In this document: one piece after another, positions 864 through 44,518 of the stretch
Layout of the letters: each line of letters begins with the position of its first letter
How positions within the stretch are numbered: position 1 is the first letter of the stretch
Notes under the pieces: generated by a model
The model's input: only the letters and a program-made list of their open reading frames with translations
Database searches by the model: none
Told to the model about the DNA's origin: nothing
NCBI RefSeq assembly: GCF_002741015.1
Contig: NZ_CP016617.1
Coordinates: 1,279,368 to 1,343,367 of the forward strand
Source: Microvirga ossetica
Lineage (GTDB): Bacteria; Pseudomonadota; Alphaproteobacteria; Rhizobiales; Beijerinckiaceae
Direction of reading: 5' to 3'
Length of the DNA stretch: 64,000 bases
Made by a program: the position numbers and the translations under genes

Positions 864-1348
864 TCACCCTCACCTCACCATCGTCGAAAGCGCACCAGAA
901 GTCAGGGTCCTTTGCTCCGCCAGCGTTACCCGGCCTCAGCGCTCGTATGACCCTGTCCGACTCCCGCCCTGGCCGGCGTCTTACAACACCGTTGAGGCCG
1001 CTACCCTCGCGTAGGACGGGTCTCCCCCGATTACCCGCATCACCCTTCCGACGTGCCGTGCCCACTACCCCGGCGGATCGAGCGGGTGCGTGTGTCGATT
1101 GCTTCCCCGCTCGCACGGCCTTCCCCAAATGGCAGGAGGGTCGGCATCCGCATTGTCACTTTCGAGGCCTGCTCAGGCTTCACTCACGTTACGGCCCACC
1201 GGATTGCTCAGCCGCCTTACAGCGACCTTTGTCACGAGGCTCCGGCCCGTCCGGTCGCCCGGCCGAACCGCTCGTCAGCTACCAGATCAATCGACAACTC
1301 TCTGGGTGGAATCTTCCTCCACTGGTGATCCGCGCCTTCGGGGCGCAC
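1..1348 (-). mobile_element. Group II intron, 5' part (3' end outside window)
   Basis: On the minus strand a typical bacterial group II intron 5' end (GTGCGCC) starts at 1348. It is followed by about 480 nt of structured non-coding RNA (domain I to the domain IV entrance) and then a reverse transcriptase frame. The stretch around 1150-1200 (GTGAGTGAAGCCTGAGCAGG on the minus strand) closely matches the second intron at 41.6 kb, so the two introns are related. Domains V and VI would lie left of base 1. The exact 5' splice site is inferred from the consensus only. Confidence 0.8.
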
Positions 1349-5749: not shown

Positions 5750-6058
5750 CCCGAACCAAACTATGAGATGGAATCACAGACAGCATCCGTTGGCCACCCC
5801 GCTGAAACCTGCTTAGCACGCAAGTTCCAAGGAGTTTGGAGAACGGAACGTTATGGAGTGCAGCGTCACCGAATCTTCCGCTGCGGGTCAAACTGAGTAG
5901 TAGCGGATGTCGGTGCGAAGGTCCGCTCATCCCAGTAGTGCGGAAGTACGGCTAAGGTCAGCCTCGTGCAGCTTCTGGACCTTTGAAGCGATAAGCATGG
6001 TATGGAGGAGGCAGAGTGACTGCAGTCGACTGGCCATGTTCCGGGACTTAGCCAAGTG
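5750..6058. repeat. Intergenic; contains one copy of a short dispersed repeat
   Basis: No gene is visible. Bases about 5876-5926 (CTTCCGCTGCGGGTCAA, then GAAGGTCCGCTC) resemble stretches at 14256-14310 and 51326-51370. The three copies share a GGGTCAA block and a (G/A)A(A/T)GGTCCGCTC-like block separated by 25-35 nt, and look like a degenerate intergenic repeat. Confidence 0.45.
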
Positions 6059-6964: not shown

Positions 6965-7111
6965 AAAGGGGCCGACGCCTGCGCTCCGGCTATGGCAGAC
7001 CCTGACGAATACGTACATCGCGGCTGACGAGTACGCTGGAGTGCCGTTCTGGCTGTCATAGGGACACGATTCGCGGTAAGCTGTTGGCGATGAGAAGTCA
7101 TGGAGCAGTCT

Positions 7112-7747
7112 ATGCCGGAGCCCACCACATCTTCGGGGCAGGTGTCATCCTCCCTGCCGGACGACGATCTCGCAATCAGGCAGCGGGTTCGAGACCTGAC
7201 CAGCCAGGTTCTCGAGCAGGGCCGGGTGGACACCGGGGCCGTCGCAGACATCGTTCGAGCAGTGACTGGTCAAAGGGATGCCCCACCTCACGCGAGCGAT
7301 GCCGAGGCCCGGGAGGTGTTTGCCGACGCCGTGCGGGAGCTTGACGAGGCACTGCTGAACTCGGCGAACGCGACGCACGCCACGCTCCAGCAACTCGCTG
7401 CGCGGGGGAAAGACTTCACCACCAACGATCTGAAGGAAGCACTGGCCAGTCTGAGGAAACTTGAAGAAGATTATGTGGCGGCCGCGGACTGCATTGCCGA
7501 GGCGATGAGTGGCAATCTGCGCCGCGAGATGACAGAGCTTGCAGGTCACGCTCAAGCGGTCGGCGCGGAGGCGAGCGCCCGAGCCGCGGGCATCATGGGG
7601 GAATTTGCCGGCCGCATGGGGGAAAGCGCGACCTCCGGTCTGCAAACGGTGCGCGGCACGAGCATCCGCATGGCGTTGCTCGCCAGTGGCGTGCTGGCCG
7701 GTGTCGCCGACGCGCTGCGCGATCGCGCAGAGACGCGAAAGGGGTAA
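7112..7747 (+). CDS. Helical protein of unknown function next to ABC1 kinase gene
   Basis: About 211 aa, Ala/Glu-rich and mostly helical, with no known catalytic motif. Residues 40-150 look like an amphipathic helical bundle (ARELDEALLNSAN-type spacing). The C-terminal third (AGIMGEFAGRMGESATSGLQ) is Ala/Gly-rich and ends in a short hydrophobic helix (IRMALLASGVLAGVADAL), which suggests membrane association. Start 7112 is preferred because GGAG lies 6 nt upstream; ATG 7100 is also possible. It ends 11 nt before the ABC1-kinase start, so the two are almost certainly co-transcribed. It may belong to a DUF6781-like family; I am not certain. Confidence 0.7.
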   Translation: MPEPTTSSGQVSSSLPDDDLAIRQRVRDLTSQVLEQGRVDTGAVADIVRAVTGQRDAPPHASDAEAREVFADAVRELDEALLNSANATHATLQQLAARGKDFTTNDLKEALASLRKLEEDYVAAADCIAEAMSGNLRREMTELAGHAQAVGAEASARAAGIMGEFAGRMGESATSGLQTVRGTSIRMALLASGVLAGVADALRDRAETRKG

Positions 7748-7758
7748 TAGGTTAGTCC

Positions 7759-9435
7759 GTGTTCACCGCCGTCCGCGATCTGCCGCGCCTGCGCGAGATC
7801 AGCTCGGTCCTCATTCGCCACGGACTCGGCGATCTCGTGCGTCGTACCGGCACGGCCACGCTGCTGGAGCGCGCCGGACAAATCCTGCAATGGCGAGAAG
7901 CCGGTGACGCCGCCGATCTCGAACCACAGCAGCGGGTGAGACTCGCGTTCGAGGAACTTGGGCCGACCTTCGTCAAACTCGGTCAGATGCTCTCTACCCG
8001 AGAGGACCTCCTACCGCCGGCCTGGACGGCTGAACTCGCCCGATTGCACAGCGACGTGCCGCCGGCCCCTTTCGACGAGCTCTTGCCGCAGGTCGAGCAG
8101 GCGCTCGGGTCCTCTCCGTTTGAGGTGTTTGCCGACCTGGAGCGCGCTCCCTACGCTGCAGCCTCGATCGCACAGGTGCATCGGGCCAAGCTGGCAAGTG
8201 GCACCCCGGTGATCTTGAAGATCCGCCGCCCGGGCATCGTGGCAAAAATCAACGCCGATCTCAGGATCCTCGGGTACCTTGCTCGTCTGGTCGAGCGCGA
8301 AATGCCAGAGGCGCGGTGCTACCGACCCATCCAAGTGGTGGACCAATTGCGCCGCTCGCTGGGGCGCGAACTCGATCTGGCGGTCGAGGCCCGCAACATG
8401 GAGCGTTTCGGGCGCAACTTCGCCGACGATCCCAACATCCTCGTGCCCCAAGTGTATGGGGCCTGGACGAGCACCGTGATGAATGTGCAGGAGCAAATCG
8501 TGGGCATTCGCGGCAACGATCTGGTGGCGATCGAGGCTGCCGGTCTCGATCGAACGGCACTCGCCGCGCGCGGGGCCGACGCCGTGCTCAAAATGATTCT
8601 GGTCGATGGGTTCTTCCACGCCGATCCGCATCCGGGCAACGTGATGTTTCTGCCTGGCAACCGCATTGCGCTGATCGACTTTGGCATGGTGGGACGCCTG
8701 TCGCCGACGCGCCGAAGCCAAATCGTCGATCTGCTGGCGGGGCTCGCACATCATGACGAGCAGGCCATGCTCGAGGTATTGCTCGACTGGCGCGGCGGTG
8801 CCACGGTGGACGAGGTCCGTCTCGCGGCCGATCTCGGCGAGCTCGCCTTCGATTTCGCCGACGTGCCGTTGAAGGATCTCAGGATCGGTGTGTTGCTGCA
8901 CAGGGTTTCGGCCGTCCTGCGCGAGCACACGATCATGATGCCGGCCGATCTTGCCCTCCTGTTCAAGGCACTCATCAGCCTTGAAGGACTCGGGCGCCAG
9001 TACGATCCGGAGTTCCGGTTGATCGAACGCGTCAAGCCGTTCCTCGACCGGGCCCTGCAGGAACGCTATCGGCCAGCGGAGGCCGTGCGACGGGGCAGGG
9101 CCACGTTCAGCGACCTTCTTGGCCTTGTCACGTCGATGCCGCGCGACATTGCGCGACTGATCAAAGACGCACGGCAGGGCCGCCTGCGGGTCGAGCTTGA
9201 CCTCAAGCGTCTTGACAGCTTCGGTGACCGGCTCGACAGCGCAATCGACCGCGTCACGGTCGGCGTCATGACGGCCTCGCTGGTGATCGGTTCCTCGATC
9301 GTGATGACAGTCCCAGGCGGGCCAACCCTGTTCGGCCAGCCTCTGCTCACTCTGGTGGGGCTGGTTGGCTATCTGATTGCATTCGTCAATAGCCTCTGGA
9401 TCATCCTGTCGATCTGGCGATCCGGTCGGCGCTGA
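7759..9435 (+). CDS. ABC1/AarF/UbiB-family atypical kinase
   Basis: A 558-aa UbiB-type protein-kinase-like ATPase starting at GTG, a family linked to ubiquinone and lipid metabolism. Visible motifs are the KxGQ block (FVKLGQMLSTREDLLP), the Ala-rich nucleotide loop (AAASIAQVHRAKL), the catalytic Lys in VILKIRRPG, the catalytic loop FFHADPHPGNVMF and the metal-binding ALIDFGMVGRL. The C-terminus has two hydrophobic helices (ASLVIGSSIVMTV and LLTLVGLVGYLIAFVNSLWI), the usual membrane anchor. No other ubiquinone gene is nearby, so this may be a paralogue rather than the housekeeping UbiB. Confidence 0.85.
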   Translation: MFTAVRDLPRLREISSVLIRHGLGDLVRRTGTATLLERAGQILQWREAGDAADLEPQQRVRLAFEELGPTFVKLGQMLSTREDLLPPAWTAELARLHSDVPPAPFDELLPQVEQALGSSPFEVFADLERAPYAAASIAQVHRAKLASGTPVILKIRRPGIVAKINADLRILGYLARLVEREMPEARCYRPIQVVDQLRRSLGRELDLAVEARNMERFGRNFADDPNILVPQVYGAWTSTVMNVQEQIVGIRGNDLVAIEAAGLDRTALAARGADAVLKMILVDGFFHADPHPGNVMFLPGNRIALIDFGMVGRLSPTRRSQIVDLLAGLAHHDEQAMLEVLLDWRGGATVDEVRLAADLGELAFDFADVPLKDLRIGVLLHRVSAVLREHTIMMPADLALLFKALISLEGLGRQYDPEFRLIERVKPFLDRALQERYRPAEAVRRGRATFSDLLGLVTSMPRDIARLIKDARQGRLRVELDLKRLDSFGDRLDSAIDRVTVGVMTASLVIGSSIVMTVPGGPTLFGQPLLTLVGLVGYLIAFVNSLWIILSIWRSGRR

Positions 9436-9926
9436 TAACCGAGGCTTGCATGGGGCCGGACATCGTAAATTCTCGAACTGATAACAAGCCGCACGGCTAG
9501 CGCATCGTGCGGAACCGAGGGTCCGGGTCAGCGAATAAGGGGATCGGTTTCCCCGTTCAAAACGATGCGCCATCAGACGCTCTAATGAGTAGCCGCTATG
9601 TGGCGACCGTTCTTCCCACCCTCGCTTCACTTGGCGCTACGTTCCTAACAAGGTCCGCTCCGGGTCTTGGTCGTCGTCTAATCGCTCATTTGAACGCAAG
9701 CCCTTTTTGGTGCCGAGGCTGTGGTTTGCCGGGAGCAGTGTCGTCTTCGCGGTCGACAGTAGTCGGCGCATGATGGGCTTCGCAGGAGGAACCTTCCAAG
9801 GTGTAAAACGCACGCTTCAGGCCTATAGGCTTGCCGGTGCACCAACCAAGGCGGAATGGTTCGTCCACGTTCCGGCAGGGACGCCTCAGCACGCCTCAGA
9901 ACAGGCGCATCGGAGTTTTGGGTGGG
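9436..9926. other. Gene-free stretch
   Basis: No supported gene. It contains a hairpin without T-run (CCGCAC/GTGCGG, 9489-9513), which may end the kinase transcript. Around 9510-9530 a GGAACCGAGGG..GGGTCAG stretch is reminiscent of the dispersed intergenic repeat found at 23.8, 29.1 and 50.5 kb. Short frames between 9500 and 9930 show no recognisable product. Confidence 0.4.
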
Positions 9927-10540
9927 TCAGGCGATAGCATTGCCTGCCCGAGTGAACGGCTCGCCGGATTTGAGCATCGCGTGCATGACGACGGCGAGCT
10001 TCCTCGCCACCGCAACGGCTACCCGTTTGAAGCCGATTCTCTCCCGCACCTGCAACCCCCATTGGCGCAGATAACTGTCGGCATGTGTGCGCGTCAGGAT
10101 CACGGTTGCGGCTTCATGGAGCAGCCCTCTCAGGTGACCATCGCCGCGCCGGGAGATGTGGCCGTCATAGTCGACTTCCCCGGACTGGTAGCGACGGGTC
10201 GTCAGGCCCAGCCAGGCCCCGACCGAGCACGACTTCTTGAAGTTCTCCGGATCCTCAATGGCGGCCGTAAACGAGGTGGCGGTGATCGCCCCCACCCCGG
10301 GGATCGCCATCAGCCGCTGACAGGCCGCACTCTGCCGGGCGCTGGCGAGAAGCTGGCGCCCCAGGGCTGATGCCCGGCTGCGCACGCTGCGCCAGGCCTC
10401 CAGCATCGGCAGGATGATCCAGGCAAGCTCCTCCTGACTTCCGGTTTCCTCTGAGCCTGCGGCTGGTTGAGGAGATCAACGGGTCACGTAAGTCCTGACG
10501 GTAAGCGCTTGCCATGCCGTGCCTCCATATCTGGAGACAA
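9927..10540 (-). pseudogene. IS110-family transposase remnant (C-terminal half)
   Basis: Only the C-terminal IS116/IS110/IS902 domain remains: LMAIPGVGAITATSFTAAIE, GAWLGLTTRRYQSGEVDYDG and GHLRGLLHEAATVIL. The N-terminal RuvC-like DEDD domain is missing. Upstream sequence to about 10540 reads in another frame with in-frame stops and looks like degraded transposase. It is therefore a dead copy. The two complete IS110 copies in this window (46.4 and 58.1 kb) are different subtypes. Confidence 0.75.
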
Positions 10541-10823
10541 GCAGGCCACATCAGCGCTCAGGGTGGAATCCCCGCTGACTCGGAATAACGGGAAGTGGCT
10601 CTAGCCTCCTATATCGTGCCGTCGATGAAGTGCATCATCTCAAGCCCCGATCATTAGGGACGACGGTTGCGTTCCGCTAACGGAGACTCACGGCGGCCCA
10701 TTCCGCGAGGAGCGGCAAGACGCCTGTTGCGGTGCGCAGCGCGGCGCCCTAGATCGCATTCCGTCGTCGAGCCCGTCCGGCCACGATCAGTCCAGCCTTG
10801 TCCCGTCTCCATCCGGAATCCCG
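10541..10823. other. Gene-free leader before the hybrid kinase
   Basis: No gene is seen. The region should hold the hybrid kinase promoter; no clear sigma-70 boxes could be picked out. Confidence 0.3.
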
Positions 10824-13800
10824 ATGCACGATAGAAACCCACGCCCAGCCGCGACCGACTGCGACTTCCTCTCGGGCGGCTGGGGGATGGGTGCCCGCAT
10901 GCGCTCGCACGACTGGTCGGGATCGCCTCTGGGAGAGCCCGAGACGTGGCCCCGGCCATTGCGGATGCTCGTGCGGATGATCCTCAATGCCAAGCAGCCA
11001 ATGTTCATTGCGTGGGGTCCGGATCTCGCCTTCCTCTACAACGACGAATACATCCCGATCCTCGGCGCCAAGCATCCCAACGCGCTCGGGCGCCCCTTCG
11101 CCGTGGTCTGGTCCGACATCTGGGAACAAATCAGACCGCTGGTCGACCAGACCCTCTCCGGGCAGGCGAGTTGGCACGAGGATCTGCTGATCCCAATGCA
11201 GCGGAACGGCTACCGCGAGGATGCTTGGTTCAGCTTCTCCTACAATCCCATCTGGGACGACGTCGGAGCGGTTGCCGGCCTGTTCTGTGCCGCGACGGAG
11301 ACAACCGGCAAGGTCCTCGGCCAGCGTGCGCTGCGGGAGAGCGAGGAGCGCGCCCGAGGCGTGCTCGACGGCATGGACGAGGCCTTCATCCTGCTCGATC
11401 GGGAGTTCCGCATTCTGCGAATCAACCCGGCCGGGTTGCGGCTGGACATGCGGCCCGAGGCGGAGATCATCGGACGCACCCATTGGGAGGTCTGGCCGAA
11501 CACCGAGAACTCGCCGTTGGGTAAGTTCTACAAACGGGCCATGGCCGAGCGCGTGCCGGCCACGTTTGAGAACAGGTACACGTGGCCTGACGGGCGGGAG
11601 GCCTGGACCGAGATCCGTGCCTATCCGGCTCCTGATGGCCTGGCGGTCTTCTACCGTGACATCACCGAGCGCAAGCATGCGGACGCCCAGCTTCGCGAGG
11701 CAGAGGACCACTATCGCCATACGGTCGAGCTGAATCCGCAGGTCACGTGGACTGCCCGCCCTGACGGCCAACTCGATCGTGTCGCCCAGCGTTGGCAGGA
11801 CTGGACCGGCACCACGGGATTGGGGGAGACCTGGGCGCAGGCGATGCACCCGGACGATCTAGAGCCGTCCCTGATGGCGTGGGCCCACTCTGTCTCGACC
11901 GGTGAGCCCTACAATATCGAGCATCGCGCACGCATGCGCGACGGCACCTACCGCTGGATGCACTCGCGCGCCCTTCCCCGGCGCAGTCCGGACGGGGAGA
12001 TCGTCGAATGGTACGGCAGCACCGAGGATATCTCAGAGCGTCGGTCCAGCCAGGATGCTTTGCGGGAGGAAACCCGCGCTCTGGAGATCCTCAACACGGC
12101 CTTGGCCGCCGCAGCGTCGGAGCACGATCTCGAGCGGCTTGTCCAGCGTGTGACGGACGCGGGCGTGGAGCTCACCGGAGCCCAGTTCGGCGCATTCTTC
12201 TATAACGTGCAGAACGAAGCCGGTGAGAGCTACATGCTCTACGCCATCTCAGGCGTTCCGCGCGAGTCGTTCTCGAAGTTCCCGATGCCCCGCAACACGA
12301 AGGTGTTCGCCCCGACCTTCAACGGTGAGCGCATTGTTCGCTCGGACGACATCACCCAGGATCCGGCCTACGGACACTCGAAACCGCATCGAGGCATGCC
12401 AGAAGGGCACCTACCGGTCCGCAGTTACTTGGCTGTGCCTGTGACGTCCCGGTCCGGTGAGGTGATCGGCGGCCTGTTCTTTGGACATGCGGAGGCGGGC
12501 GTCTTCCACAAGCGCTCGGAGCGGCTCATATCGGGGCTTGCCGCAGGGGGTGCCGTAGCCATCGACAACGCTCGCCTGTTCCAGAAAGCCCAACGCGAGA
12601 TCGAGGAACGTCGGCGCGCTGAGGAAGCGCTGCGGCGCCTGAATGGGACCCTGGAGGCCGAGGTCGAGGAGCGCACCAAGGAAAGGGATCAGATCTGGCA
12701 GCTCAGCACGGACCTGATGGACGTATGCCGCTCGGACGGAACGTTGGTTGCCGTCAACCCGGCCTGGACGACGATCCTCGGCTGGTCCGAGGCGGAGCTG
12801 CTCGCCAGTAACTTTCTTGGGCTCATCCATCCGGACGATGTCGAGAGCACACTCGCGGAGCTTGCCGGTCTTGACCAGGGTGCCCAGACCTTCCGGTTCG
12901 AGAACCGCTTCCGCGCCAGGGACGGTGGCTACCGGCTGATCTCGTGGACGGCAGTGCCTAAGGAGGGACTGTTCTACGCCATCGGCCGCGACATCACTGC
13001 GGAGCGGGCAGCGGCGGAGGCGCTGCGTCAGACCGAGGAGGCTCTGCGGCAGTCACAGAAGATGGAGGCAGTGGGCCAGCTCACGGGCGGCATCGCGCAC
13101 GACTTCAACAACCTGCTGACCGGGATCGTGGGTTCCCTCGACATGCTGCGTACGCGCGTCTCGCAGGGGCGCCTCGAGACCGTCGATCGCTACATCACGG
13201 CGGCAACGACGTCCGCCAACCGCGCCGCGGCCCTGACGCACCGTCTGCTCGCCTTTGCCCGCCGCCAGCCGCTCGATCCCAGGCCTGTGCAGGCAAACGC
13301 ACTCGTCGCTTCCCTTGAGGATCTATTCCGGCGCACCGTCGGTGAGGCGGTGACATTGGAGGTCGTGCTGGCGGGAGGCCTCTGGCCGACGCTCTGCGAT
13401 CCCAATCAACTGGAGAGCGCGCTTCTCAACCTCGTCATCAACGCCCGCGACGCGATGCCGGACGGCGGCAAGCTCACGATCGAGACCTGCAACGCTCACC
13501 TGGACGAGGCCTACATCGCGGCGCAGCGGGACGTGAGACCCGGCCAGTACGTCTGCATCTGCGTGACGGACACGGGAACGGGCATGCCGCAGGACGTGAT
13601 AGAGCGCGCGTTCGATCCGTTCTTCACGACGAAGCCCATTGGTCAGGGAACCGGGCTGGGGCTGTCGATGGTCTACGGGTTCGCCCGCCAGTCGGAGGGC
13701 CACGCGAAGATCTACAGCGAGGTGGGTCAAGGCACCACGATCAAGATCTACCTCCCGCGCTACCGCGGCGAAACAGACGCGGAAATCGAGGCGTCGACGC

Positions 13801-33876: not shown

Positions 33877-34854
33877 ATGACCACCTTCACCCGGCGAGTT
33901 CTTCTGGCGGGCGTAGCGCTCCTGGCCACGGCCACAGCCCATGCCGAGTCCTGGCCGCAGCGGCCAGTGACCGTCGTTGTGCCTCAGGCCGCGGGAAACA
34001 GCCCCGACGTTCTTTGCCGCATCATCGCCGACAAGCTCTCTCGTAGCTTTGGACAGCAGTTCGTTGTCGAGAACCGTCCTGGCGCCGCGAACGTCGTCGG
34101 CACACAATCGGTCGCGCGTGCTGCACCTGACGGTTACACGTTCCTGTTCGCGACCTCGGCCTCGCTGGTCACCAATCCCTATACCTTCAAGAACCTCTCG
34201 TACGATCCGGTCAAGGATTTCACGCCGGTCGCCATGGTGGCGAAAAGCCATCATGTGCTCCTGGTGAATAAGGATGTGAAGGCCAAGACTCTCCCCGAGC
34301 TGATTGCGCTCGAGAAGGCTGCCCCCGGTTCATTGAGCCTTGCGGTTGATGGCCCGCGGAATATCTCGGGGCTGATTGCGCAATCGATCAACAAGCAGGC
34401 TGGCACCAAGTTCGTGCTCGTGCCCTACAACACCATCTCAAACGCGGTGCAGGACAGCATCACGGGCCGCACCCAGGTCACGATCCAATCGGCATCCGTG
34501 GTCGAACCCTTCATCAAGGAAGGCTCTCTCCGGCCGATCGCAGTTGCTGGAACCAAGCGCATCTCCTCGCTCCCCGAAGTGCCTGCCATTTCCGAAACCT
34601 TGAAGAGCGTCGATCTCCAAGGCTGGTTCATGGTCTTGGCTCCGGCCAACACGCCCACTGACATCGTTCAGAAACTGAGTTCGGAGATCGCCCGGGTCCT
34701 GAAGGAGCCTGATGTTCAGGAGCGGGCTCCAACTCTGGGCTTCGAGGTCGATCCGGGCGAGGCTGTGACGCCTGACGGAGCCAAGAAGTTCCTGGAAGCG
34801 GAGCTTGCCTCGACCGGCAAGGTCATTCGGGAGCTCGGTATCGAGCCACAATGA
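33877..34854 (+). CDS. Bug-family (TctC-like) solute-binding protein
   Basis: A 325-aa periplasmic binding protein of the tripartite tricarboxylate transporter type. The signal peptide is FTRRVLLAGVALLATATAHA with cleavage after AHA. The mature part begins with the family pattern WPQRPVTVVVPQAAGNSPD and contains NRPGAANVVGTQSVARAAPD. A strong ribosome site (AAGGAGG) precedes ATG 33877. Genes for the TctA and TctB membrane parts are not nearby, as is common for Bug proteins. In this operon it probably binds the aromatic acid or ester that the enzymes use. Confidence 0.88.
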   Translation: MTTFTRRVLLAGVALLATATAHAESWPQRPVTVVVPQAAGNSPDVLCRIIADKLSRSFGQQFVVENRPGAANVVGTQSVARAAPDGYTFLFATSASLVTNPYTFKNLSYDPVKDFTPVAMVAKSHHVLLVNKDVKAKTLPELIALEKAAPGSLSLAVDGPRNISGLIAQSINKQAGTKFVLVPYNTISNAVQDSITGRTQVTIQSASVVEPFIKEGSLRPIAVAGTKRISSLPEVPAISETLKSVDLQGWFMVLAPANTPTDIVQKLSSEIARVLKEPDVQERAPTLGFEVDPGEAVTPDGAKKFLEAELASTGKVIRELGIEPQ

Positions 34855-35948: not shown

Positions 35949-36169
35949 ATGCGCCGATACCAAGGTGCCTGGCTCAGCTCGGCTTCGCCGAACGAGGTCG
36001 CTGCGGAAGGACTGCTCTGGGTCACGAGCAGGAGATCGGCGCAAAGTAAGGGACGTCCGGCCTACCCTGGTAAGCTGACGAAGACCTTTGGAGGAATGCT
36101 CAGTCTGGCTTTCCTGTCGGCATAGACTGCCAAGGTTCATTGCGGGGGTTTCGCTTCAGGAGCACTGCA
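35949..36169. other. Intergenic
   Basis: No gene is seen. A boundary between the catabolic cluster and the integrase region. Confidence 0.35.
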
Positions 36170-36802
36170 ATGCAAGACAGGATCGCTGACCGTCCTTGGC
36201 GAACCAACTCCCCTTGGAACCGGGGCAAGCTGATTGGACCCAAGCCGCCTCTGAAAGCCAAGGAGATCTGGTCCATTCGGGTCAGGCTCCAGGTTGCCAA
36301 CCGCATCCGAGATTTGGCTCTGTTCAACCTCGCTCTCGACAGCAAGCTGCGAGCCTGTGACCTGGTCGCGCTCCGGGTCGATGATGTAGCCCTGAATGGA
36401 CGGGTGCGATCCCGAGCCACTATCATGCAGAGAAAGACCGGCCGGCCCGTTCAGTTCGAGATCACCGAGCAGACCCGCGAGGCTGTGGGACGCTGGCTCG
36501 AGAAGATGGAGTTGCACAAAGGAGAGCCACTCTTTCCCAGCCGTATCAATCGGCGAAGGTCGATGACAACGCGCCAGTACGCCCGCCTACTTGGGTCCTG
36601 GCTTCGCTCAATCGGGCTCGATCCCTTGTCCTACGGCCCACATTCCCTGCGACGGACCAAAGCTTCGATGATTTATCGACGAACAGGCAATCTCCGCGCC
36701 GTCCAGCTCCTGCTGGGCCACACCAAGATCGAGAGTACCGTGCGGTACCTGGGCATCGATGTCGACGATGCCCTTCTGATTGCGGAGCAGGTTGAAATCT
36801 AA
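36170..36802 (+). CDS. Tyrosine-type recombinase/integrase (short form)
   Basis: A 210-aa integrase consisting of little more than the catalytic domain. The conserved residues appear in order: Arg in SKLRACDLVALRVDD, Lys in MQRKTGRPVQFE, His-x-x-Arg in GPHSLRRTKASM, His in LLLGHTKIESTVRYLG and Tyr in that last block. The N-terminal core-binding domain is short. Start 36170 follows AGGAG. Short integrases of this type are frequent in Hyphomicrobiales accessory DNA. It lies 296 bp upstream of the vWA-kinase operon, which may have been acquired with it. Confidence 0.85.
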   Translation: MQDRIADRPWRTNSPWNRGKLIGPKPPLKAKEIWSIRVRLQVANRIRDLALFNLALDSKLRACDLVALRVDDVALNGRVRSRATIMQRKTGRPVQFEITEQTREAVGRWLEKMELHKGEPLFPSRINRRRSMTTRQYARLLGSWLRSIGLDPLSYGPHSLRRTKASMIYRRTGNLRAVQLLLGHTKIESTVRYLGIDVDDALLIAEQVEI

Positions 36803-36834: not shown

Positions 36835-37098
36835 CAGCCTACGCTCGCTACGAGACAAGGTCCGGATGTGAGGCTCAAGCAGCCACAAGACAAACGACCG
36901 GCGCGTGCTAGAAGGCGACATTCGTAACATTGGCTCACCCAACAACTTACCTTCTTCGAAAAAGCCTGCGGCTCACCTGGGCAGGCTTCCATCTCTGAGC
37001 GCCCTGTGCGCAGCCGGGAACTTCGGTCTGGCCGCCCTGTTGTTGGATAGCTCGGTTCATCGAACCGAGACCAAGGTTACGCTAACTGGAGCTGACGC

Positions 37099-38019
37099 AT
37101 GAGTGATATGGAGCATTCCGACCAACCGACTCCGGTGACGCCTGGGAACCCGCGTTCAACGGAGACGACAGGTTCGACGGAAGCAGCGCTCGGAACACCC
37201 ACGGAAGCGGCTGGATTCACACCGGATGTCTCGACGGAGACAGCTCCAGGAGAAAATGCGCCCGCTGAAGTCGCCACTCCGCCGAGCGTTCAGGAGCGAC
37301 CGAAGACCAAGGGTGTGGCCGATATCGTATTCCTCGTTGACGTCAGTGGCAGCATGTCGCCCTGCATCGATGCGCTCCGCCGAAACATTGAGGCATTCAT
37401 CGACTCCCTGAGCCGGGGCGATGCCAACAACGCCGCTCCTGTCCGGGACTGGCGCGGCAAGGTCGTCGGATATCGTGACATCGAAGCTGCCCAAGCCGAG
37501 GGGCTGCCCTGGATCGTCGACAACCCCTTCGTGCGCGACGCCGGAGCACTCAAGGCGCAGCTTGGCACCTTGCAGGCGAACGGTGGCGGCGATGAACCGG
37601 AGTCGCTTCTCGATGCCCTCTACAAGGTTGCTTCCATGGAGGCGGTTCCAAAGGGTTCACAAAGCGAAGATCCGGCAAAATGGCGTTACAGGAGCGATGC
37701 GGCACGGGTTGTCATCGTCTTCACCGATGCGTCGTTCAAGGAAACCATGAGCCTTCCCGAGGCGAAGGGAGGCTCGCTCCAGGATGTGGCAAACCTTGTC
37801 ATGGCCAATCGGATCATCCTCAGCCTCTTCGCCCCGAACTTCGAGGGCTATGATCGCCTGAGCCAGATCGACAAGTCGGAATGGGAGGTCGTGGAGTACG
37901 AAGGATTGAACCCGCAGGAAGCATTGCAGAAATTTACGTCCGATCCAGTCAATTTCCGCAACACCCTGAAGCAACTGGCCGCCAGCGTCTCGCGCTCGGC
38001 AGCGACTGTGGCGCTGTAG
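37099..38019 (+). CDS. vWA-domain protein, first gene of the kinase-phosphatase operon
   Basis: A 306-aa protein. Residues 1-70 are a Thr/Pro/Glu-rich disordered tail. A von Willebrand A domain follows with an intact MIDAS (D81-V-S83-G-S85 in FLVDVSGSMSPCIDAL) and a second acidic site at D165 in GGGDEPESLLDAL, plus VVIVFTDASFKETM. It is soluble with no signal peptide. Start 37099 has GGAG 8 nt upstream. The gene lies 32 bp before the kinase gene. vWA proteins paired with kinases and phosphatases (TerY-P type) are thought to act as metal-dependent scaffolds or substrates. The Thr-rich tail is a natural candidate for phosphorylation and FHA binding; that part is inference. Confidence 0.88.
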   Translation: MSDMEHSDQPTPVTPGNPRSTETTGSTEAALGTPTEAAGFTPDVSTETAPGENAPAEVATPPSVQERPKTKGVADIVFLVDVSGSMSPCIDALRRNIEAFIDSLSRGDANNAAPVRDWRGKVVGYRDIEAAQAEGLPWIVDNPFVRDAGALKAQLGTLQANGGGDEPESLLDALYKVASMEAVPKGSQSEDPAKWRYRSDAARVVIVFTDASFKETMSLPEAKGGSLQDVANLVMANRIILSLFAPNFEGYDRLSQIDKSEWEVVEYEGLNPQEALQKFTSDPVNFRNTLKQLAASVSRSAATVAL

Positions 38020-38051
38020 ACGCTCCGCCTCTGGCACGCTGAGCGCAAGCC

Positions 38052-39359
38052 ATGGCCAAGAAGCTGAAAGTCGGGGATCGGATCCGGCACTACCGCGTCA
38101 CGAAGGTCTTCGGACCAGGCATGATGGCGATCTCCTATGGAGCTGGGGCCCCGACAGGAGAGAAGGTCTTTCTGAAGCAGTACAAGTCACCTGCTCCTAG
38201 CGTTGTTTGGTACAAGGCATTCGTTGCCTACCAGAACGAGCTCGGAGCCCGCGTCCGGAATGGGCGGGCGGCTCAGTTCGCGGTGCGCCAGGTGGATGCG
38301 TTCGAAGAGGTCTGGGGCGGACCCTGCTACTTCCAGGCCTTCGAGTTCGTCGAGAACGGCGCCGACCTCCAGCAAATGCTCGATGAGGAGCGGGAGCAGC
38401 ATCGCCGCACCAAGGTGCCCGCCACCAACAACCCCGCCGTCTGGGCCCGTCACGTCACCTGGGCCAAGGTCTTCATGACCGGAATGGCGGCGCTGCACGA
38501 ATCCAAGATTGTCCATGCCGATCTGAAGCCGGCGAATGCGTATCTGATCCAGGACCCGACGATCAGCTCCGGCTACCAGCTCAAGCTGATCGACATGGAC
38601 TTCTCGCTCCTGGCTGACCGGCGTGCGCCCTGGCACGGCCATCAAGGATATGTCGGCACCGATAACTATCGCTCGCCCGAGCATATGACGCGGGGGGCTG
38701 TGCCCGGCCTTGCCTCCGATGTCTTTACCTGTGGGCTAATGCTCTACGAGCTGCTCGCCGGCTACCATCCCTACTGGGTCGAGGACCAGGCGGAGTATGC
38801 AAAGCTCGTGCAGAGCTATGCGGCCAAACCTCCGACGCTTGCCGGGGTGATGCCGGCGCCGGCGAGCAATGCCGAGGTCAGCTCCTTCCTGCACCGCTGC
38901 CTTGCACCGGACCCCGCCGCCAGACCGACGGCTGCGGAACTGCGGGCCATTTTGAGCGGGCGCGGCCCAGGGTCGTCCATCGCCAAAGAAGGTTCTGCTA
39001 CGACAGCGGGCGAAAGCGCTCCTCGACCTGACGCCGAGTTGATCCTGTCCGACAGGATCGAGCTGCTGGGCCCGGACGGACGCTCCCTGCAAATCGGAGT
39101 CAGGACGGAACTCGGAAAATCCCTGGTGCGGCAGTTCGGGCCGGACAGCGAGTTCTGGGACAATCGCCAATGTGTCCTCGAACGGCATTCCGAGCGGCAA
39201 TGGGTAATATCGCCTGTGGCGGGCACAACCAACGAAACTCTCGTGAACGGTGCAGCGCTCACGGCTCCTCGCCCGCTCAGGCAGGGCGATCGGATCGCTG
39301 TTGGACGCCAGGCCAAAGGCATTGCCAAGATGCCGCTCACAGCGCGGGCACTCACATGA
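38052..39359 (+). CDS. Ser/Thr protein kinase with C-terminal FHA-like domain
   Basis: A 435-aa soluble kinase. The kinase domain (10-300) has an unusual glycine loop (VFGPGMMAISYGAG), the ATP-binding K42 in VFLKQYK, a catalytic loop H155-A-D157-LKPAN (HRD becomes HAD) and the metal motif D183-F-S in DMDFS. GTDNYRSPEH follows in the activation segment. After a linker (300-330) the C-terminus resembles an FHA fold (LVRQFGPDSEFWDNRQCVLE; TNETLVNGAALTAPRPLRQG), which would read phosphothreonine. No membrane segment is seen. It starts 32 bp after the vWA stop and overlaps the phosphatase start by ATGA. Confidence 0.88.
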   Translation: MAKKLKVGDRIRHYRVTKVFGPGMMAISYGAGAPTGEKVFLKQYKSPAPSVVWYKAFVAYQNELGARVRNGRAAQFAVRQVDAFEEVWGGPCYFQAFEFVENGADLQQMLDEEREQHRRTKVPATNNPAVWARHVTWAKVFMTGMAALHESKIVHADLKPANAYLIQDPTISSGYQLKLIDMDFSLLADRRAPWHGHQGYVGTDNYRSPEHMTRGAVPGLASDVFTCGLMLYELLAGYHPYWVEDQAEYAKLVQSYAAKPPTLAGVMPAPASNAEVSSFLHRCLAPDPAARPTAAELRAILSGRGPGSSIAKEGSATTAGESAPRPDAELILSDRIELLGPDGRSLQIGVRTELGKSLVRQFGPDSEFWDNRQCVLERHSERQWVISPVAGTTNETLVNGAALTAPRPLRQGDRIAVGRQAKGIAKMPLTARALT

Positions 39360-40735
39360 GCCTGCCTGGCGAACCTGAAGCGCCTGAGCCCGTTCCTCCG
39401 GGTGAGAAGCCGGAGAAGCGGGAAGCGGCTTCAACATTGGCGGATGTGCCCAAGGATGAACCTGCGACACAGGATCCTGCACAACCGCCAGATGCCCTTG
39501 CCTCGGATGCTCCCGTTGTGGGCGCTGAATCGTTATCGGAAGCTGCGGTACCTCCACCAGTCAGCGAAGAGCCCCCGCAGAGCATGGGCAGCCTGTCTTC
39601 GGATGCGGCTCCGACCGCCGTCATGACGCAAACCCCCTTGCAGATCGTGGAGGTGGAACACGTGGACTGGCAGGCTGTCCGCGATGCGGCCAACCCGTCC
39701 TCCATCCGCTCCAATATGCGATCGACGGTGGAGTGCATGGAGGCGCTGCTCGATAAAGCCGACGGACCCGGCCTGTTGTTCGACAAGGACCGCACCGATC
39801 CCGCCGACAAGGTGATCCAGGTCTCTGACTTGGATACCGGAAGTCCGTTGTGGATCATCGGTGATTTGCATGGCGATCTCTTGGCGCTCGAGGCCGCACT
39901 GGCGGCGATGCGCGATCTGCCGCTGCAACCCAACGGGGGCCAGTCCCGGATCGTGTTTCTCGGCGATCTCTTCGATGATGAAGGTTTCGGGCTCGAAGTT
40001 CTTCTCCGCGTGTTCGAGCTGATCGTGGACGCTCCGGATCGCGTGTGCCTCATCGCAGGCAACCACGACGAGGCGCTCTCCTATGACGGCGTGCGGTTTG
40101 CCTCGAGCGTGACCCCGTCGGACTTCGCGGATTTCCTGAACGCCAATCTCGCGCATGAATGGATCGAGCGGGCCGGCAAGGTGGCCGTGCGTCTGTTCGC
40201 GCGTGCTCCCCGTGCGCTCTTCTTTCCCGACGGTCTACTGATAGTTCATGGAGGCTTCCCGCTGGCGGATCTGCACGCTCGGCTTGCCGAAACGGGAGAT
40301 TGGAATGACCCAAAGTGCCTGTCGGACTTCGTGTGGACCAGGGCGCATCCGAAAGCCCGCAAGAAGCTCCCGAACCGCTTTTCGCGGGGGAGCCAGTTCG
40401 GGTATGAGGACTTCGCCGCCTTCTGTGTCCTGAGCACCAGTTTAGGACGCCCCGTCACGCGCATGGTGCGCGGCCACGATCATGTGGAGGAGAGATACGC
40501 CGCCTATCCGGCCTATTGGGCTCATCCGGTGCTGACGACCGTGGCCCTCTCCCGCCGATTGAGCCGTGAGAGCTTCGGCCCCTACGAGCGCGTTCCCACC
40601 ATGGCGCAATTTGTCGAAGGGACGCTCCCCCGGGTGTATCGGCTGCACATTCCTGCGGACATGATCCGCGAGACCTATCCGGAACTCACCCCCGGCAACC
40701 CTGAGAGTGAAACGATCCAGGAACCTCATCGATGA
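39356..40735 (+). CDS. PPP-family metallophosphatase (Ser/Thr phosphatase-like)
   Basis: A 459-aa protein. Residues 1-110 are Pro/Glu-rich and disordered. The metallophosphoesterase domain shows the PPP signature in order: GDLHGDLL (D170, H172), FLGDLFDDEG, AGNHDEALSY, LIVHGGFPL and RGHDHVEE. The GDxHG..GDxxDxG..GNHD set is that of PPP serine/threonine phosphatases, suggesting it reverses the action of the upstream kinase. ATG 39356 overlaps the kinase stop, and its own stop overlaps the next start, so the operon is fully coupled. A PPP enzyme here replaces the PP2C-type phosphatase usual in TerY-P triads. Confidence 0.87.
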   Translation: MSLPGEPEAPEPVPPGEKPEKREAASTLADVPKDEPATQDPAQPPDALASDAPVVGAESLSEAAVPPPVSEEPPQSMGSLSSDAAPTAVMTQTPLQIVEVEHVDWQAVRDAANPSSIRSNMRSTVECMEALLDKADGPGLLFDKDRTDPADKVIQVSDLDTGSPLWIIGDLHGDLLALEAALAAMRDLPLQPNGGQSRIVFLGDLFDDEGFGLEVLLRVFELIVDAPDRVCLIAGNHDEALSYDGVRFASSVTPSDFADFLNANLAHEWIERAGKVAVRLFARAPRALFFPDGLLIVHGGFPLADLHARLAETGDWNDPKCLSDFVWTRAHPKARKKLPNRFSRGSQFGYEDFAAFCVLSTSLGRPVTRMVRGHDHVEERYAAYPAYWAHPVLTTVALSRRLSRESFGPYERVPTMAQFVEGTLPRVYRLHIPADMIRETYPELTPGNPESETIQEPHR

Positions 40736-41319
40736 CCGGCGTAATCCTGCGTTGCCCGAACTGCGGTACCTCGAAGACGACTCCTGGCGAATGCGAAGCC
40801 TGTCACGAGGCGCAGGTCCGCTACTACTGCACGAACCACAAGCCCGGGCGATGGCTCGATGACTCCGTATGTCCGCAATGCGGCGCGAAATTCGGCGATC
40901 CGATCCGTCCGGCAGCAAGGCCCGTTGCGCCTGCCACTCCGCCTCGTCCACGGACGACGATCACGTCCACTGCACCGCCGCGCGCCGATCCTCCGCCGAT
41001 GCCCCCCAGAACCAGTGCCAAACCCTGGGGCCGCAGAGAACGGGAGAGATCTCCCGATCCGGATCCAGGTGCGAGCGATGAGAGCGCTTCGGTACGCGAT
41101 ATCCGTACGGCAAGAATGCTGGAGATCCTCAGGGCCGCTTCGCGCGCCGGCCGCATGTCCCGAGGAGCAACCTACACCGCTCCGGAGGCCCCACCGGTTG
41201 GGGCGGCGCTGAGCGGCTGCCTGATGCGCTTCGTGATCCTCGCGATGTTCCTGCTCATCAGCTTTTTCGTGATGGTGTCGCTTGTAGGTGGATCCCTGTT
41301 CGGGGGTTATTACTACTGA
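40732..41319 (+). CDS. Zinc-ribbon, C-terminal-anchored membrane protein
   Basis: A 195-aa protein. The N-terminal 60 residues hold two zinc-binding clusters (RCPNCGTSKTTPGECEACHE and CTNHKPGRW..SVCPQCGAKFG). A Pro/Arg-rich disordered linker of about 100 residues follows. One hydrophobic segment near the C-terminus (FVILAMFLLISFFVMVSLVG) makes it a tail-anchored protein with the zinc ribbons in the cytoplasm. It is coupled to the phosphatase by ATGA. In the operon it could tether the kinase complex to the membrane or act as an effector. No family name is recognised. Confidence 0.8.
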   Translation: MTGVILRCPNCGTSKTTPGECEACHEAQVRYYCTNHKPGRWLDDSVCPQCGAKFGDPIRPAARPVAPATPPRPRTTITSTAPPRADPPPMPPRTSAKPWGRRERERSPDPDPGASDESASVRDIRTARMLEILRAASRAGRMSRGATYTAPEAPPVGAALSGCLMRFVILAMFLLISFFVMVSLVGGSLFGGYYY

Positions 41320-41423: not shown

Positions 41424-41915
41424 GTGCGCCGTGACAAGGCGGCGCTTTCCAGTGGGTGCAAGTCCCACCCGGCAAAAGCTCCAGCCGGAAGCAACCGGAG
41501 CAGTCATGGAGGTAACGAAATGGCTGAAGCCTTCGGATAGCGGGTCACGAATTGGTGACCGCGCGAGTGTGCAGGCCGCAACGTGAGTGAACGCTGAGCA
41601 AGCCTCGAAAAGGACGATGTGCAGGCCGACCCGACAACCCTTTCGGGGAAGGCTGATACGGCTGGGTGAATGAGCAAGGAGTACGCCCAGGCGCTGCACC
41701 GGGGTAGTGGCGGCAGCATGTACACAAGGAAAGCGCACGCAACACGGGAAGCCCCAGGACGTGGTCAGGGATGACCAACCGGAGGCCCGCGAGGGACAGA
41801 CCGGGCGCCCTGGGGTGGCGGAGAGGCTCGTAGGACCTTGGAAGCCGGGTAATGCCGGTGGAGGAAAGGGGCCTCAGTTCAAGACAGACGCACGACGTGG
41901 TGAGGGACCTGGAGA

Positions 41916-43247
41916 TTGGGCAACCTATCAACTCCGAAGAGTGTTCAGAAACTGCAGACGGCGTTGCACGCGAAAGCGAAGGCAGAAGCCGGTTATCGCT
42001 TCTACGCCCTGTACGACAAGATCAGCCGCGAGGACATTCTGGCGCATGCCTATGCCCAGTGCCGCTCCAATAAGGGCGCACCGGGTGGCGACGGTCAGGA
42101 CTTTGCGGACATCGAGGCGTATGGGGTCGAGCGGTGGCTGGGTGAACTGGCGCTGGCGCTCAGGCAGGAGACTTACCGACCGGACCCGATCAGACGCGTG
42201 TTCATCCCGAAGGCCAACGGCAAACTCAGGCCGCTGGGCATCTCGACCGTGCGGGATCGGGTCTGCATGACGGCAGCGATGCTGGTGCTGGACCCGATCT
42301 TCGAGGCCGACCTTCCACCAGAACTCTACGCCTACCGGACCGGGCGCAATGCCCAGCAGGCGGTGATCGAGGTGGAAGAGCTGCTGTTCCGAGGCCATCC
42401 GGACGTCGTGGACGCCGACCTCGCGGACTACTTCGGGAGCATTCCCCATGCCGAGCTGATGACGTCAGTGGCGCGCCGCATCGTTGATCGGCGCGTGCTG
42501 CACCTGATCAGAGGGTGGCTGGACTGCCCCGTGGAAGAAACCGACACACGAGGACAGACGACACGGACAACGGAGGCGCGCGATCAACGGCGCGGCATCC
42601 CGCAGGGCTCACCCCTCTCACCCTTGCTGGCCAATCTGTACATGCGCCGGTTTGTGCTGGGATGGAAGAAGCTCGGGCTGGAGCACAGCCTCGGCAGTCG
42701 CATCGTGACCTATGCGGACGACCTCGTGATCCTGTGCAGGAAGGGCAAAGCCGAAGAGGCCTTGCACCGGCTGCGCGAGATCATGGGCAAGCTGAAGCTG
42801 ACGGTGAACGAGGAGAAGACACGCATCTGCAAGGTGCCGGAAGGCGAGTTCGACTTCCTGGGGTACACGTTCGGACGGATGTATTCGGCGAGAACCGGCC
42901 AGGCCCGCCTGGCGCAACGGCCCTCGAAGAAGAGCATCCGGCGCGCGGTCGAGAAGATCCATGCGCTGACCGCCCGAGCGGGAACATGGCAAGAGACCAC
43001 AGTGCTGGTGGGCAAGTTGAACCGCACGCTACGCGGATGGGCGAACTACTTCTCAGTAGGCACCGTCAACCCGGCGTACCGGGCGCTCGACACCTATACA
43101 GCGGTGCGGTTGCGCCGGTGGTTGCGCTCCAAGCATAAGGTCAGGCGACGCAAGGGCGGGGCTTATCCCCTCTCGCATCTTTACGGGCACTTCGGGCTCG
43201 TCCGCCTGAGCCGGCTTGGGCACGACGTGCCGTGGGTGAAGGCGTGA
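41916..43247 (+). CDS. ltrA: Group II intron reverse transcriptase/maturase
   Basis: A 443-aa intron-encoded protein starting at TTG 41916. It has the RT domain ([55 protein letters not shown]; catalytic YADDLVIL), the X/maturase domain ([15 protein letters not shown]) and a basic C-terminus. No HNH endonuclease domain is present, so mobility would rely on single-stranded target DNA. It appears intact, unlike the frameshifted copy at the left window edge. It probably promotes splicing and retrohoming of its own intron. Confidence 0.9.
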
Positions 43248-43259
43248 GGTCTTGTCCGA

Positions 43260-43292
43260 GAGCCGGATGCGGGAGATCTGCATGTCCGGTTC
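43260..43292 (+). ncRNA. Group II intron domain V
   Basis: AGCCGGATGCGGGAGATCTG and the following CATGTCCGGTTC form the short catalytic hairpin expected just after the intron protein gene, with the AGC-triad region in the lower stem. Confidence 0.8.
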
Positions 43293-43406
43293 GATGAGCG
43301 GGGTGTGGAAACGGAGCAACGGCTCGGCTAGTGAGGCACCGCCAGGCGAAAGCGGCGGAAACAGATAGGCCGATCCTACCGCCACCGCGCCACACCTCGA
43401 CTCTAC

Positions 43407-43642
43407 CAACTCGCGAATTCTGCTGCCCGCCAGGAACGTCCGGTGTTCCCTTCCAGAGCTGCCATTCGGTTTACTTCCGCCTCGTGCCAATGAACGAACC
43501 CGCTCGCGCGGGAGGGCACTGCGGCTGGGGCGGTGCCATGGCTTGGGGGCGGTAACCCGCTGAACGGCACACGATGACAGGGCTGGGTCCTGTCTTGAGG
43601 ATCGAGGGGTTTGGTGCCTCCACCTCACGACAGGAGCCTTCG
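43407..43642. other. Intergenic between intron and IS91 genes
   Basis: No gene is seen. It holds GAACGTCCGGTGTTCCC near 43434, reminiscent of the dispersed repeats, and presumably the left end of the IS91-type element. Confidence 0.35.
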
Positions 43643-44518
43643 ATGTCCGAGACAGCCATCAGCCCGCTGCGCCAGCGCATGATCGATGACATGACGGTGC
43701 GCCATTTCGTCGAGAAGACCTGCACTGATTACATCCGCCAGGTCAGACGCTTCGCGGCCTTCCTCGGCCGCTCGCCGGAGACCGCCTCGCCTGAGGATGT
43801 GCGGCAGTTCCAGTTGCACCTGACCGAAAGCGGCGTGACCCCACCGAGCCGCACCGCGGCGGTCGCGGCCCTGCGCTTCTTCTTCACCGTCACCCTCGAT
43901 CGGATCGATCTGGCTCGGCGTCTCACCTTGGTCCACGAGCCGCGCAAAGTACCCCTCGTCCTGAGCCCGGCGGAAGTGGCTCGCCTTCTCGAGGCGGCCC
44001 CGGGCCCCAAGTACAAGGCAGCTCTGAGCGCGGCCTATGGCGCTGGGCTGCGGGTGTCGGAAGTCGTGTCGCTCAAGGTCTGCGATATCGACTCTCAGCG
44101 CATGCTCATCCGCATCGAGCAGGGCAAGGGCCGCAAGGATCGCTATGCGATGCTCTCCCCGCAATTGCTCGAACTCTTGCGCGACTGGTGGCGGATCGCG
44201 CGGCCCCTGGTCTGGCTCTTTCCCGGCCAGAACCCGGTCAACCCGCTCACCACGCGCCAGCTCAACCGCGCCTTCCATGCGGCCGCGCAGCAGGCCGGGA
44301 TCACCAAGCGCGTGAGCCCGCACACGCTCAGGCATAGCTTCGCCACGCATCTGCTGGAACAGAACATCGACATTCGCGTGATCCAGGTCCTGCTCGGGCA
44401 TGCCAAACTCGAGACCACTGCGCTCTACACCCGTGTCGCCACCTCCACGATCCGCGCCGTCATGAGCCCACTCGATCGGCTTACCCTGCTGAGACCGGAG
44501 CATCAGCCGCCCGCGTAA
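43643..44518 (+). CDS. Tyrosine recombinase of the IS91-type element
   Basis: A 291-aa tyrosine recombinase with a core-binding domain (YIRQVRRFAAFLGRSPE) and catalytic residues in order: Arg in YGAGLRVSEVVSLK, Lys in GKGRKDRYAML, His/Arg in SPHTLRHSFATHLLE, His in VLLGHAKLETTALYTRV with the nucleophile Tyr. Start 43643 has AGGAG 7 nt upstream. This gene regularly accompanies IS91-family transposases in proteobacteria, and its role in transposition is not established. It is followed after 12 bp by the transposase gene, so the two are co-transcribed. Confidence 0.87.
   Translation: MSETAISPLRQRMIDDMTVRHFVEKTCTDYIRQVRRFAAFLGRSPETASPEDVRQFQLHLTESGVTPPSRTAAVAALRFFFTVTLDRIDLARRLTLVHEPRKVPLVLSPAEVARLLEAAPGPKYKAALSAAYGAGLRVSEVVSLKVCDIDSQRMLIRIEQGKGRKDRYAMLSPQLLELLRDWWRIARPLVWLFPGQNPVNPLTTRQLNRAFHAAAQQAGITKRVSPHTLRHSFATHLLEQNIDIRVIQVLLGHAKLETTALYTRVATSTIRAVMSPLDRLTLLRPEHQPPA

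Follow-up and report, generated by a model that had tools for sequence, protein, structure and literature searches.

Which known system, if any, accounts for a compact operon of four genes in Microvirga ossetica, and under what control does it stand? The operon, also referred to below as the cassette, lies in a 64,000-nucleotide stretch of contig NZ_CP016617.1 (positions 1,279,368 to 1,343,367 of the forward strand; this whole stretch is the window) within a genome of 9.63 Mb, and encodes a von Willebrand factor A (vWA) domain protein, a Ser/Thr kinase with a C-terminal FHA domain, a PPP-type metallophosphatase and a membrane protein with two zinc ribbons. The four-gene operon is a real, conserved unit, and what is new here is a conserved, apparently EcfG-type element upstream of its alphaproteobacterial copies. 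The evidence leans towards a stand-alone, horizontally moving Ser/Thr phospho-switch that is tethered to the membrane, belongs to the general stress response of Alphaproteobacteria and is probably transcribed by EcfG.

The conserved four-gene unit

The four genes lie on one strand, with a 32-bp gap between the vWA and kinase genes and 4-bp ATGA overlaps at the two following junctions, as the first-pass annotation of this DNA had described (open reading frame (ORF) coordinates in Table 1). Relatives were scanned with one genome per species, which yielded 38 loci; one of these (L049, 26% identity) was set aside as unrelated. Among the 37 true relatives, the vWA, kinase-FHA, PPP-like phosphatase and zinc-ribbon/transmembrane genes follow one another in the same order in 33, including one locus (L046) with two additional genes inside the operon, and in the remaining four the operon is cut by a contig end. 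These relatives belong to Alphaproteobacteria, Betaproteobacteria, Myxococcota (one locus carrying the record label Deltaproteobacteria), Acidobacteriota and Gemmatimonadota, with kinase identities of 54–92%. Recurrence of the gene set in the same order is far beyond chance. The 4-bp overlaps also recur across copies, most often at the junction of the phosphatase and zinc-protein genes, and the flanks around the operon vary.

Clustering of flanking ORFs across loci, which also returned ORFs overlapping the four genes, revealed no fifth gene travelling with the four-gene copies among the first 40 clusters listed. A larger cassette was considered and rejected: one mixed ORF cluster is present in 15 loci at scattered positions and looks like unrelated multidomain proteins. 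None of the four window proteins reaches an NCBIfam model cut-off, and no recognisable prior description of the set was found in the open-licence literature, which misses most subscription papers.

Searches by phylum with the vWA profile (E ≤ 1e-15, the starting genome counted each time) gave matches in 8 of 298 Gemmatimonadota, 2 of 282 Myxococcota and 4 of 247 Acidobacteriota genomes. Gemmatimonadota L046 and L073–L075 have six genes, encoding vWA, kinase-FHA, solo FHA, zinc-ribbon/FHA-like, PPP and zinc proteins (in L046 a contig end truncates the last); L076 stops within the kinase gene, and L081–L083 have the four-gene version. The solo FHA protein is above the Pfam cut-off in the three scanned (24.4–27.3 bits), whereas the FHA part of the zinc-ribbon protein is below it (13.7 bits at best) and is recognised from alignment with the kinase FHA domain at 30–32% identity. 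Acidobacterial L078 comprises two vWA genes, a kinase gene with a sub-threshold FHA match, a gene for an FHA-like protein and a PPP gene; acidobacterial L080 comprises a PPP gene, three vWA genes, a kinase gene and a gene for a zinc-ribbon-like protein of 1047 aa with an FGE-sulfatase domain (4823–7966 of that locus). In myxococcal L077 PPP, kinase, vWA and zinc-ribbon-like proteins are encoded, together with a transglutaminase-core protein (9719–10846) that at its C-terminus looks, by eye, like the unusual C-terminal domain of the L077 kinase. For L077 and L080, Pfam reports no FHA domain in the kinase, and its presence there is our own reading. Across these versions the family keeps a PPP/vWA/kinase core, and gene order and readers vary.

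The upstream EcfG-type element

The vWA gene of the window is preceded by an exact GGAAC-N17-GTT. This sequence agrees with the EcfG promoter, EcfG being the sigma factor of the general stress response in Alphaproteobacteria. Published EcfG motifs are GGAAC-N17-20-GTT (Sphingomonas melonis, PMC6599016) and GGAAC-N16-CGTT (Rhizobium etli, PMC3892343), and the factor is described as occurring in Alphaproteobacteria only (PMC3892343). The 120 bp upstream of the vWA gene were compared in 25 alphaproteobacterial copies (Microvirga 8, Rhizobium/Rhizobiales 6, Methylobacterium 1, Sphingomonas 3, Bradyrhizobium 2, Acetobacteraceae/Rhodospirillales 5) and 15 copies from other groups, with 191 other ORFs of the same loci as background. 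The element is exact in 20 of the 25 (shuffle mean 0.08) and present with at most one mismatch in all 25 (shuffle mean 1.3; largest value 5 in 300 shuffles), always with a spacing of 17 nt. It is found in none of the 15 non-alphaproteobacterial copies, several of which have unsure vWA starts (e.g. L028, L036 and L046), and precedes 5 of the 191 background ORFs exactly and 14 within one mismatch. Fisher tests of alphaproteobacterial copies versus background gave p values of 3e-19 (exact) and 4e-23 (one mismatch), with kinship between genomes ignored. Another Microvirga locus outside the 25 (L007) has an exact element and is the 26th alphaproteobacterial copy; as far as tried, the element is missing upstream of L081, L080 and L073–L078.

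In a comparison of flanks, a short upstream stretch alone is conserved, and it contains GGAAC-N17-GTT. Among eight Microvirga copies compared over flanks of up to 8 kb, the first match is mostly a piece of 39–227 bp adjoining the operon start; among the exceptions are one of 1,031 bp, which lies at unequal offsets in L013 and L017, and a few elsewhere that measure 140–400 bp. At the phyR-nepR-ecfG locus of the same genome, where PhyR and EcfG were named by reading of the ORFs and NepR by family search, GGAAC-N17-GTT occurs eight times in 8 kb (0.30 expected). NepR is above its cut-off in 14 of the 16 alphaproteobacterial host genomes searched and in none of eight others; the two exceptions are the genome of L034, slightly under the cut-off, and that of L048, with none.

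Some further observations concern NepR and promoters. The M. ossetica genome has 20 NepR family matches at E ≤ 0.01, many of which exceed the curated cut-off; for a general-stress anti-sigma factor this is a high number. A second cassette copy on contig C1 of this genome (identity 90% for the vWA protein, 89% for the kinase and 74% for the phosphatase and zinc protein) has a nepR and extracytoplasmic function sigma factor gene pair ∼9 kb downstream (L089, 5028–5989; C1, ∼843.0–844.0 kb). A link between the two was considered and rejected: the exact EcfG pattern is missing from the 12-kb stretch, so their closeness may be chance. In the Polaromonas loci L024, L025, L039 and L044, which are betaproteobacterial and lack an EcfG element, the vWA gene is preceded by a common TAAATT(T)-like stretch, possibly another promoter type.

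The four proteins, their distribution and surroundings

Kinase residues K42, E63, D157, N162 and D181 are conserved in 38 of 38 copies. The first-pass annotation had listed K42, D157 and D183; the first two stand, but the Asp at the DFG position, where the protein reads DMD, is D181 rather than D183 (both are present in all 38). The FHA domain proposed for the C-terminus is well founded, with a Pfam score of 28.3 bits against a cut-off of 20.7 and a predicted model of residues 326–435 that matches GarA and others. The phosphatase scores 50.2 bits with Pfam Metallophos (cut-off 21.5) and has PPP fold matches, which place it as PPP-like, and all 34 copies examined retain six metal ligands. The PPP signature is GDxHG/GDxVDRG/GNHE; the first-pass annotation had credited the enzyme with it, but the cassette family reads GDLHG/GDxxDD/GNHD and so departs from it at two places, whereas the phosphatases of distant relatives L077 and L080 have DRG and GNHE.

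For the fourth protein, Pfam zinc-ribbon matches are below cut-off, and the zinc ribbons read from the sequence are nonetheless borne out by C8, C11, C21, C24, C33, H36, C47 and C50, kept in 35 of 35 aligned copies. The tail anchor holds as well: all 34 full-length copies have a transmembrane-like segment, which in 32 lies at most 19 residues from the C-terminus, with 48 (L026) and 181 (L040) residues following it in the others.

The vWA protein was said to have an intact metal ion-dependent adhesion site (MIDAS; D81, S83, S85). The vWA domain itself is confirmed by Pfam (VWA_4 and VWA), but S83 is Thr in 8 of 39 copies and, on our reading, the middle MIDAS Thr is not evident. Its Pro/Ala/Thr-rich N-terminal tail, proposed earlier as substrate of the kinase and ligand of the FHA domain, is variable and not conserved among aligned copies, and was rejected in that role; it may still be a flexible linker or a non-conserved phosphosite. 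Since the C-terminal tail is an invariant SVSRSAxTVAL-type sequence and the N-terminus is unconserved, the C-terminal Ser/Thr residues appear to be the better candidate phosphorylation target. A profile search of the PDB with the vWA protein returned nothing significant. The module reading of the first-pass annotation is thus upheld as to the conserved four-gene unit, but not as to this substrate or, as discussed below, a defence context.

The nearest cassette copies are those of Microvirga. Besides its own genome, the cassette is present in 5 of 36 congeners (E ≤ 1e-40); it was found in none of 24 genomes from other families of the order at the same threshold, and a sample of 384 other genomes from the class yielded no match at E ≤ 1e-50. 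In protein databases, with 8000 candidates scored for each protein, 1334 relatives of the phosphatase and 2057 of the vWA protein reach E ≤ 0.001; the best 120 were inspected. The vWA gene is found at 81–94% identity on eight plasmid records (seven Rhizobium, one Microvirga), all larger than 1.1 Mb, and below 60% identity on six further ones. Trees of the vWA protein, kinase and phosphatase (34 rows each, with L034, L037 and phosphatase-less loci omitted) all group Microvirga with Rhizobium (support 100/99 or better) and place Methylobacterium, of Microvirga's own family, elsewhere; support is weak at many smaller forks, and the branch of L046 is long. On the evidence of these sequences, the cassette is moving horizontally between genomes.

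The integrase and group II intron that had been noted near the operon are indeed there, with tyrosine recombinases on both sides and an intron directly downstream (Table 1).

Table 1. Coordinates of the operon, its upstream element and neighbouring features in the window.
Feature	Position	Strand	Remarks
EcfG-type promoter element GGAAC-N17-GTT	37017..37041	+	Exact match, 82 bp upstream of vWA ATG
vWA-domain protein gene	37099..38019	+	306 aa; Pfam VWA_4/VWA above cut-off
Ser/Thr kinase-FHA gene	38052..39359	+	435 aa; Pfam Pkinase and FHA above cut-off
PPP-type metallophosphatase gene	39356..40735	+	459 aa; Pfam Metallophos above cut-off; long variable N-terminus
Double zinc-ribbon protein gene, C-terminal transmembrane tail anchor	40732..41319	+	195 aa; conserved ligands, transmembrane-like segment
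Tyrosine recombinase	36140..36802		Catalytic domain model only
Group II intron RNA match	41450..43385		Directly downstream of cassette
Reverse transcriptase/maturase ORF	41916..43247		Within the intron match directly downstream of cassette
Tyrosine recombinase	43574..44518		
Group II intron RNA match	1184..1324		
Presumed receptor-like protein	33877..34854		Presumably resembles a periplasmic tricarboxylate-transporter receptor

Comparable known systems, rival readings and a proposed switch

In its parts the cassette resembles both the archaeal Arn switch and the bacterial TerY-P triads (PMC11090510, PMC4978471, PMC7699616), and is filed under neither. Like TerY-P, it encodes a vWA protein, a Ser/Thr kinase and a phosphatase together, with a zinc ribbon in the set, and TerY-P-like modules can also stand alone (PMC11090510). 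The TerY-P phosphatase is, however, a PP2C enzyme, and the TerY-P kinase ends in a zinc ribbon or OB fold, in contrast to the PPP phosphatase and FHA domain of the cassette, whose zinc ribbons are on a separate membrane-anchored protein and which has an EcfG-type promoter upstream. In Escherichia coli, yegL, pphC and yegI are what we take to be parts related to TerY-P; the profile comparison of the cassette kinase with YegI is weak, as is that of the vWA protein with YegL (hhalign covers 31 columns only, probability 61%), the tails of the latter two having SVSRS in common. Filing the operon under TerY-P was rejected on its PPP phosphatase and FHA domain.

In the Arn network of Sulfolobus, the FHA/zinc-finger protein ArnA binds the vWA protein ArnB, and ArnC, one of the kinases of the network beside ArnD, phosphorylates both in vitro; ArnB phosphorylation in the complex leads to higher oligomers, which PP2A association and dephosphorylation dissociate, and the phosphorylated ArnB residues found lie in its C-terminal bundle (PMC7472852, PMC6509490). 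A vWA partner, a Ser/Thr kinase and a PPP phosphatase are all in the cassette, a likeness of domain types only. The ArnA layout of zinc finger plus FHA is not in the window, where the two are on different proteins, and an ArnA-like zinc-ribbon/FHA layout is seen only in the Gemmatimonadota versions. The cassette differs further in being one bacterial operon with FHA fused to the kinase and no link to motility; to our knowledge, bacteria lack archaella. An ArnB homologue consists of vWA, beta-sandwich and helix bundle, unlike the window protein. Also comparable is the PrkA-vWA-SpoVR operon of Rhizobium etli, which is (p)ppGpp-induced and has a kinase gene beside a vWA gene, but whose kinase is of the PrkA family and whose third gene is SpoVR-like, with no phosphatase, FHA or zinc-ribbon gene named as part of it (PMC3188799). 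For the GarA/OdhI FHA signalling of Actinobacteria we know of no vWA or PPP partner, and the usual pocket R and S are replaced by K and D in the cassette.

Three other functions were weighed against a stress-response switch. Flanks were tallied over 133 of 165 flanking ORFs (those of L012 and L014 and scattered short or outlying ones left out), and statements on them refer to the best 25 of 122 Pfam families and the best 25 of 67 PADLOC families; the commonest Pfam families are sensory histidine kinases (7 of 133 ORFs). A stand-alone, TerY-P-like anti-phage system is suggested by the combination of vWA, kinase and phosphatase in a stand-alone cassette that moves between genomes, by the description of TerY-P, reported to be active against T7-like phages, and of OB-fold variants as defence (PMC11090510, PMC7699616), by a kinase domain resembling the MAD6 and PD-T4-6 kinases, and by single flanking ORFs that strongly match AbiEii, PDC-S02 and PD-T4-6/mad6 models. 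We nevertheless consider it unlikely: the kinase match, at 63 bits where the MADS6 cut-off is 460, is generic and made by the kinase domain alone, the other three proteins have no PADLOC match at E ≤ 1, each of the best 25 PADLOC families matches at most one flanking ORF, and PPP replaces PP2C as FHA replaces zinc ribbon or OB fold. Among the best Pfam families of the flanks there is no recurring defence family, nor any recurring Ter, restriction or nuclease neighbour, and the EcfG element predicts stress induction, so the likeness to defence loci seen by the first-pass annotation, which rests on the neighbouring integrase, intron and IS elements, finds no backing in this context. A phage origin was likewise rejected, the vWA protein having no match in phage records; a scan of viral contigs gave two weak matches (32% and 25% identity).

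A Ter-like metal or oxidative-stress sensor, with the zinc-ribbon protein detecting metal or redox change and the kinase/phosphatase pair relaying the signal, would suit the stress promoter and the eight invariant zinc ligands beside a membrane anchor, and TerY-P has been hypothesised to be a metal-sensing phospho-switch (PMC11090510). Against this, no ter gene family is among the best Pfam families of the flanks and the similarity of vWA profiles to YegL is confined to the 31 columns mentioned. A structural role is also the commoner one for zinc in such ribbons, and the sensor seems improbable to us. The third possibility is that phospho-dependent assembly regulates surface structures (motility, exopolysaccharide) or type VI secretion, much as ArnA/ArnB act on the archaellum. 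It draws on the match of parts with Arn (FHA with zinc finger, vWA, kinase, PP2A) and on the membrane tether, yet neither the clusters listed nor the best Pfam families show a recurring surface or secretion gene in the flanks. Because distribution is patchy even among congeners, such a target would need to be widespread among hosts, and of the three this function strikes us as the least probable.

The favoured reading is thus the phospho-switch of the general stress response. In Alphaproteobacteria, EcfG probably transcribes the operon, and the proteins would therefore be made when the PhyR-NepR-EcfG cascade fires. They may form one signalling complex at the inner membrane, in which the kinase-FHA protein would phosphorylate its partners and the PPP enzyme would reset them. 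The vWA protein would serve as adaptor, its C-terminal Ser/Thr tail being the likeliest switch site, and the zinc-ribbon protein would act as the membrane tether of the complex and may also be a sensor of metal or redox state. By analogy with Arn, the output could be reversible assembly of a vWA-FHA complex that captures or releases a regulator. A broader proposal, offered tentatively, is that PPP-type vWA-kinase-phosphatase switches, as a so far undescribed class in at least four phyla, are the bacterial counterpart of Arn, wired to EcfG in Alphaproteobacteria, with the phosphorylated SVSRSAxTVAL tail held by the unusual kinase FHA pocket as the switch.

Several observations weigh against these proposals. 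Related genomes are non-independent samples for the promoter counts; all five one-mismatch copies are from Acetobacteraceae/Rhodospirillales, with the mismatch in the -35; the -10 in the window is TGTT, compared with CGTT in R. etli (TGTT is also found at one of the eight phyR-nepR-ecfG sites); and with 5 occurrences in the window (2.3 expected) the exact pattern is no rarity there, in addition to its absence from the 12 kb around the second nepR-sigma pair. The copies outside Alphaproteobacteria lack an EcfG site, so evidence of stress control is confined to Alphaproteobacteria. No vWA entry is listed in the S. melonis regulon paper (main text), and the operon was not found in the transcriptomes and phosphoproteomes met in a search of open-licence papers. 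At the protein level, the predicted phosphatase model is weak overall (mean predicted local distance difference test score, pLDDT, 60). The canonical FHA phosphothreonine pocket has Arg and Ser, in place of which the kinase has K356 (33 of 36 copies; R in two, Q in one) and D370 (36 of 36), with N394 also in 36 of 36. For Arn itself, mutating pairs of mapped ArnB sites failed to break the interaction (PMC6509490, PMC7472852).

The EcfG response has been read mainly as a transcription programme, with many targets of unclear role. If the switch is real, the output of EcfG would include a eukaryote-like Ser/Thr phospho-relay, giving the response a protein-phosphorylation arm that is carried, among others, on Rhizobium and Microvirga megaplasmids, and the invariant vWA tail would offer one precise site for testing. 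The switch would also allow Arn and TerY-P to be viewed within one shared framework of vWA adaptor, kinase, phosphatase and FHA/zinc reader, testable in tractable soil bacteria.

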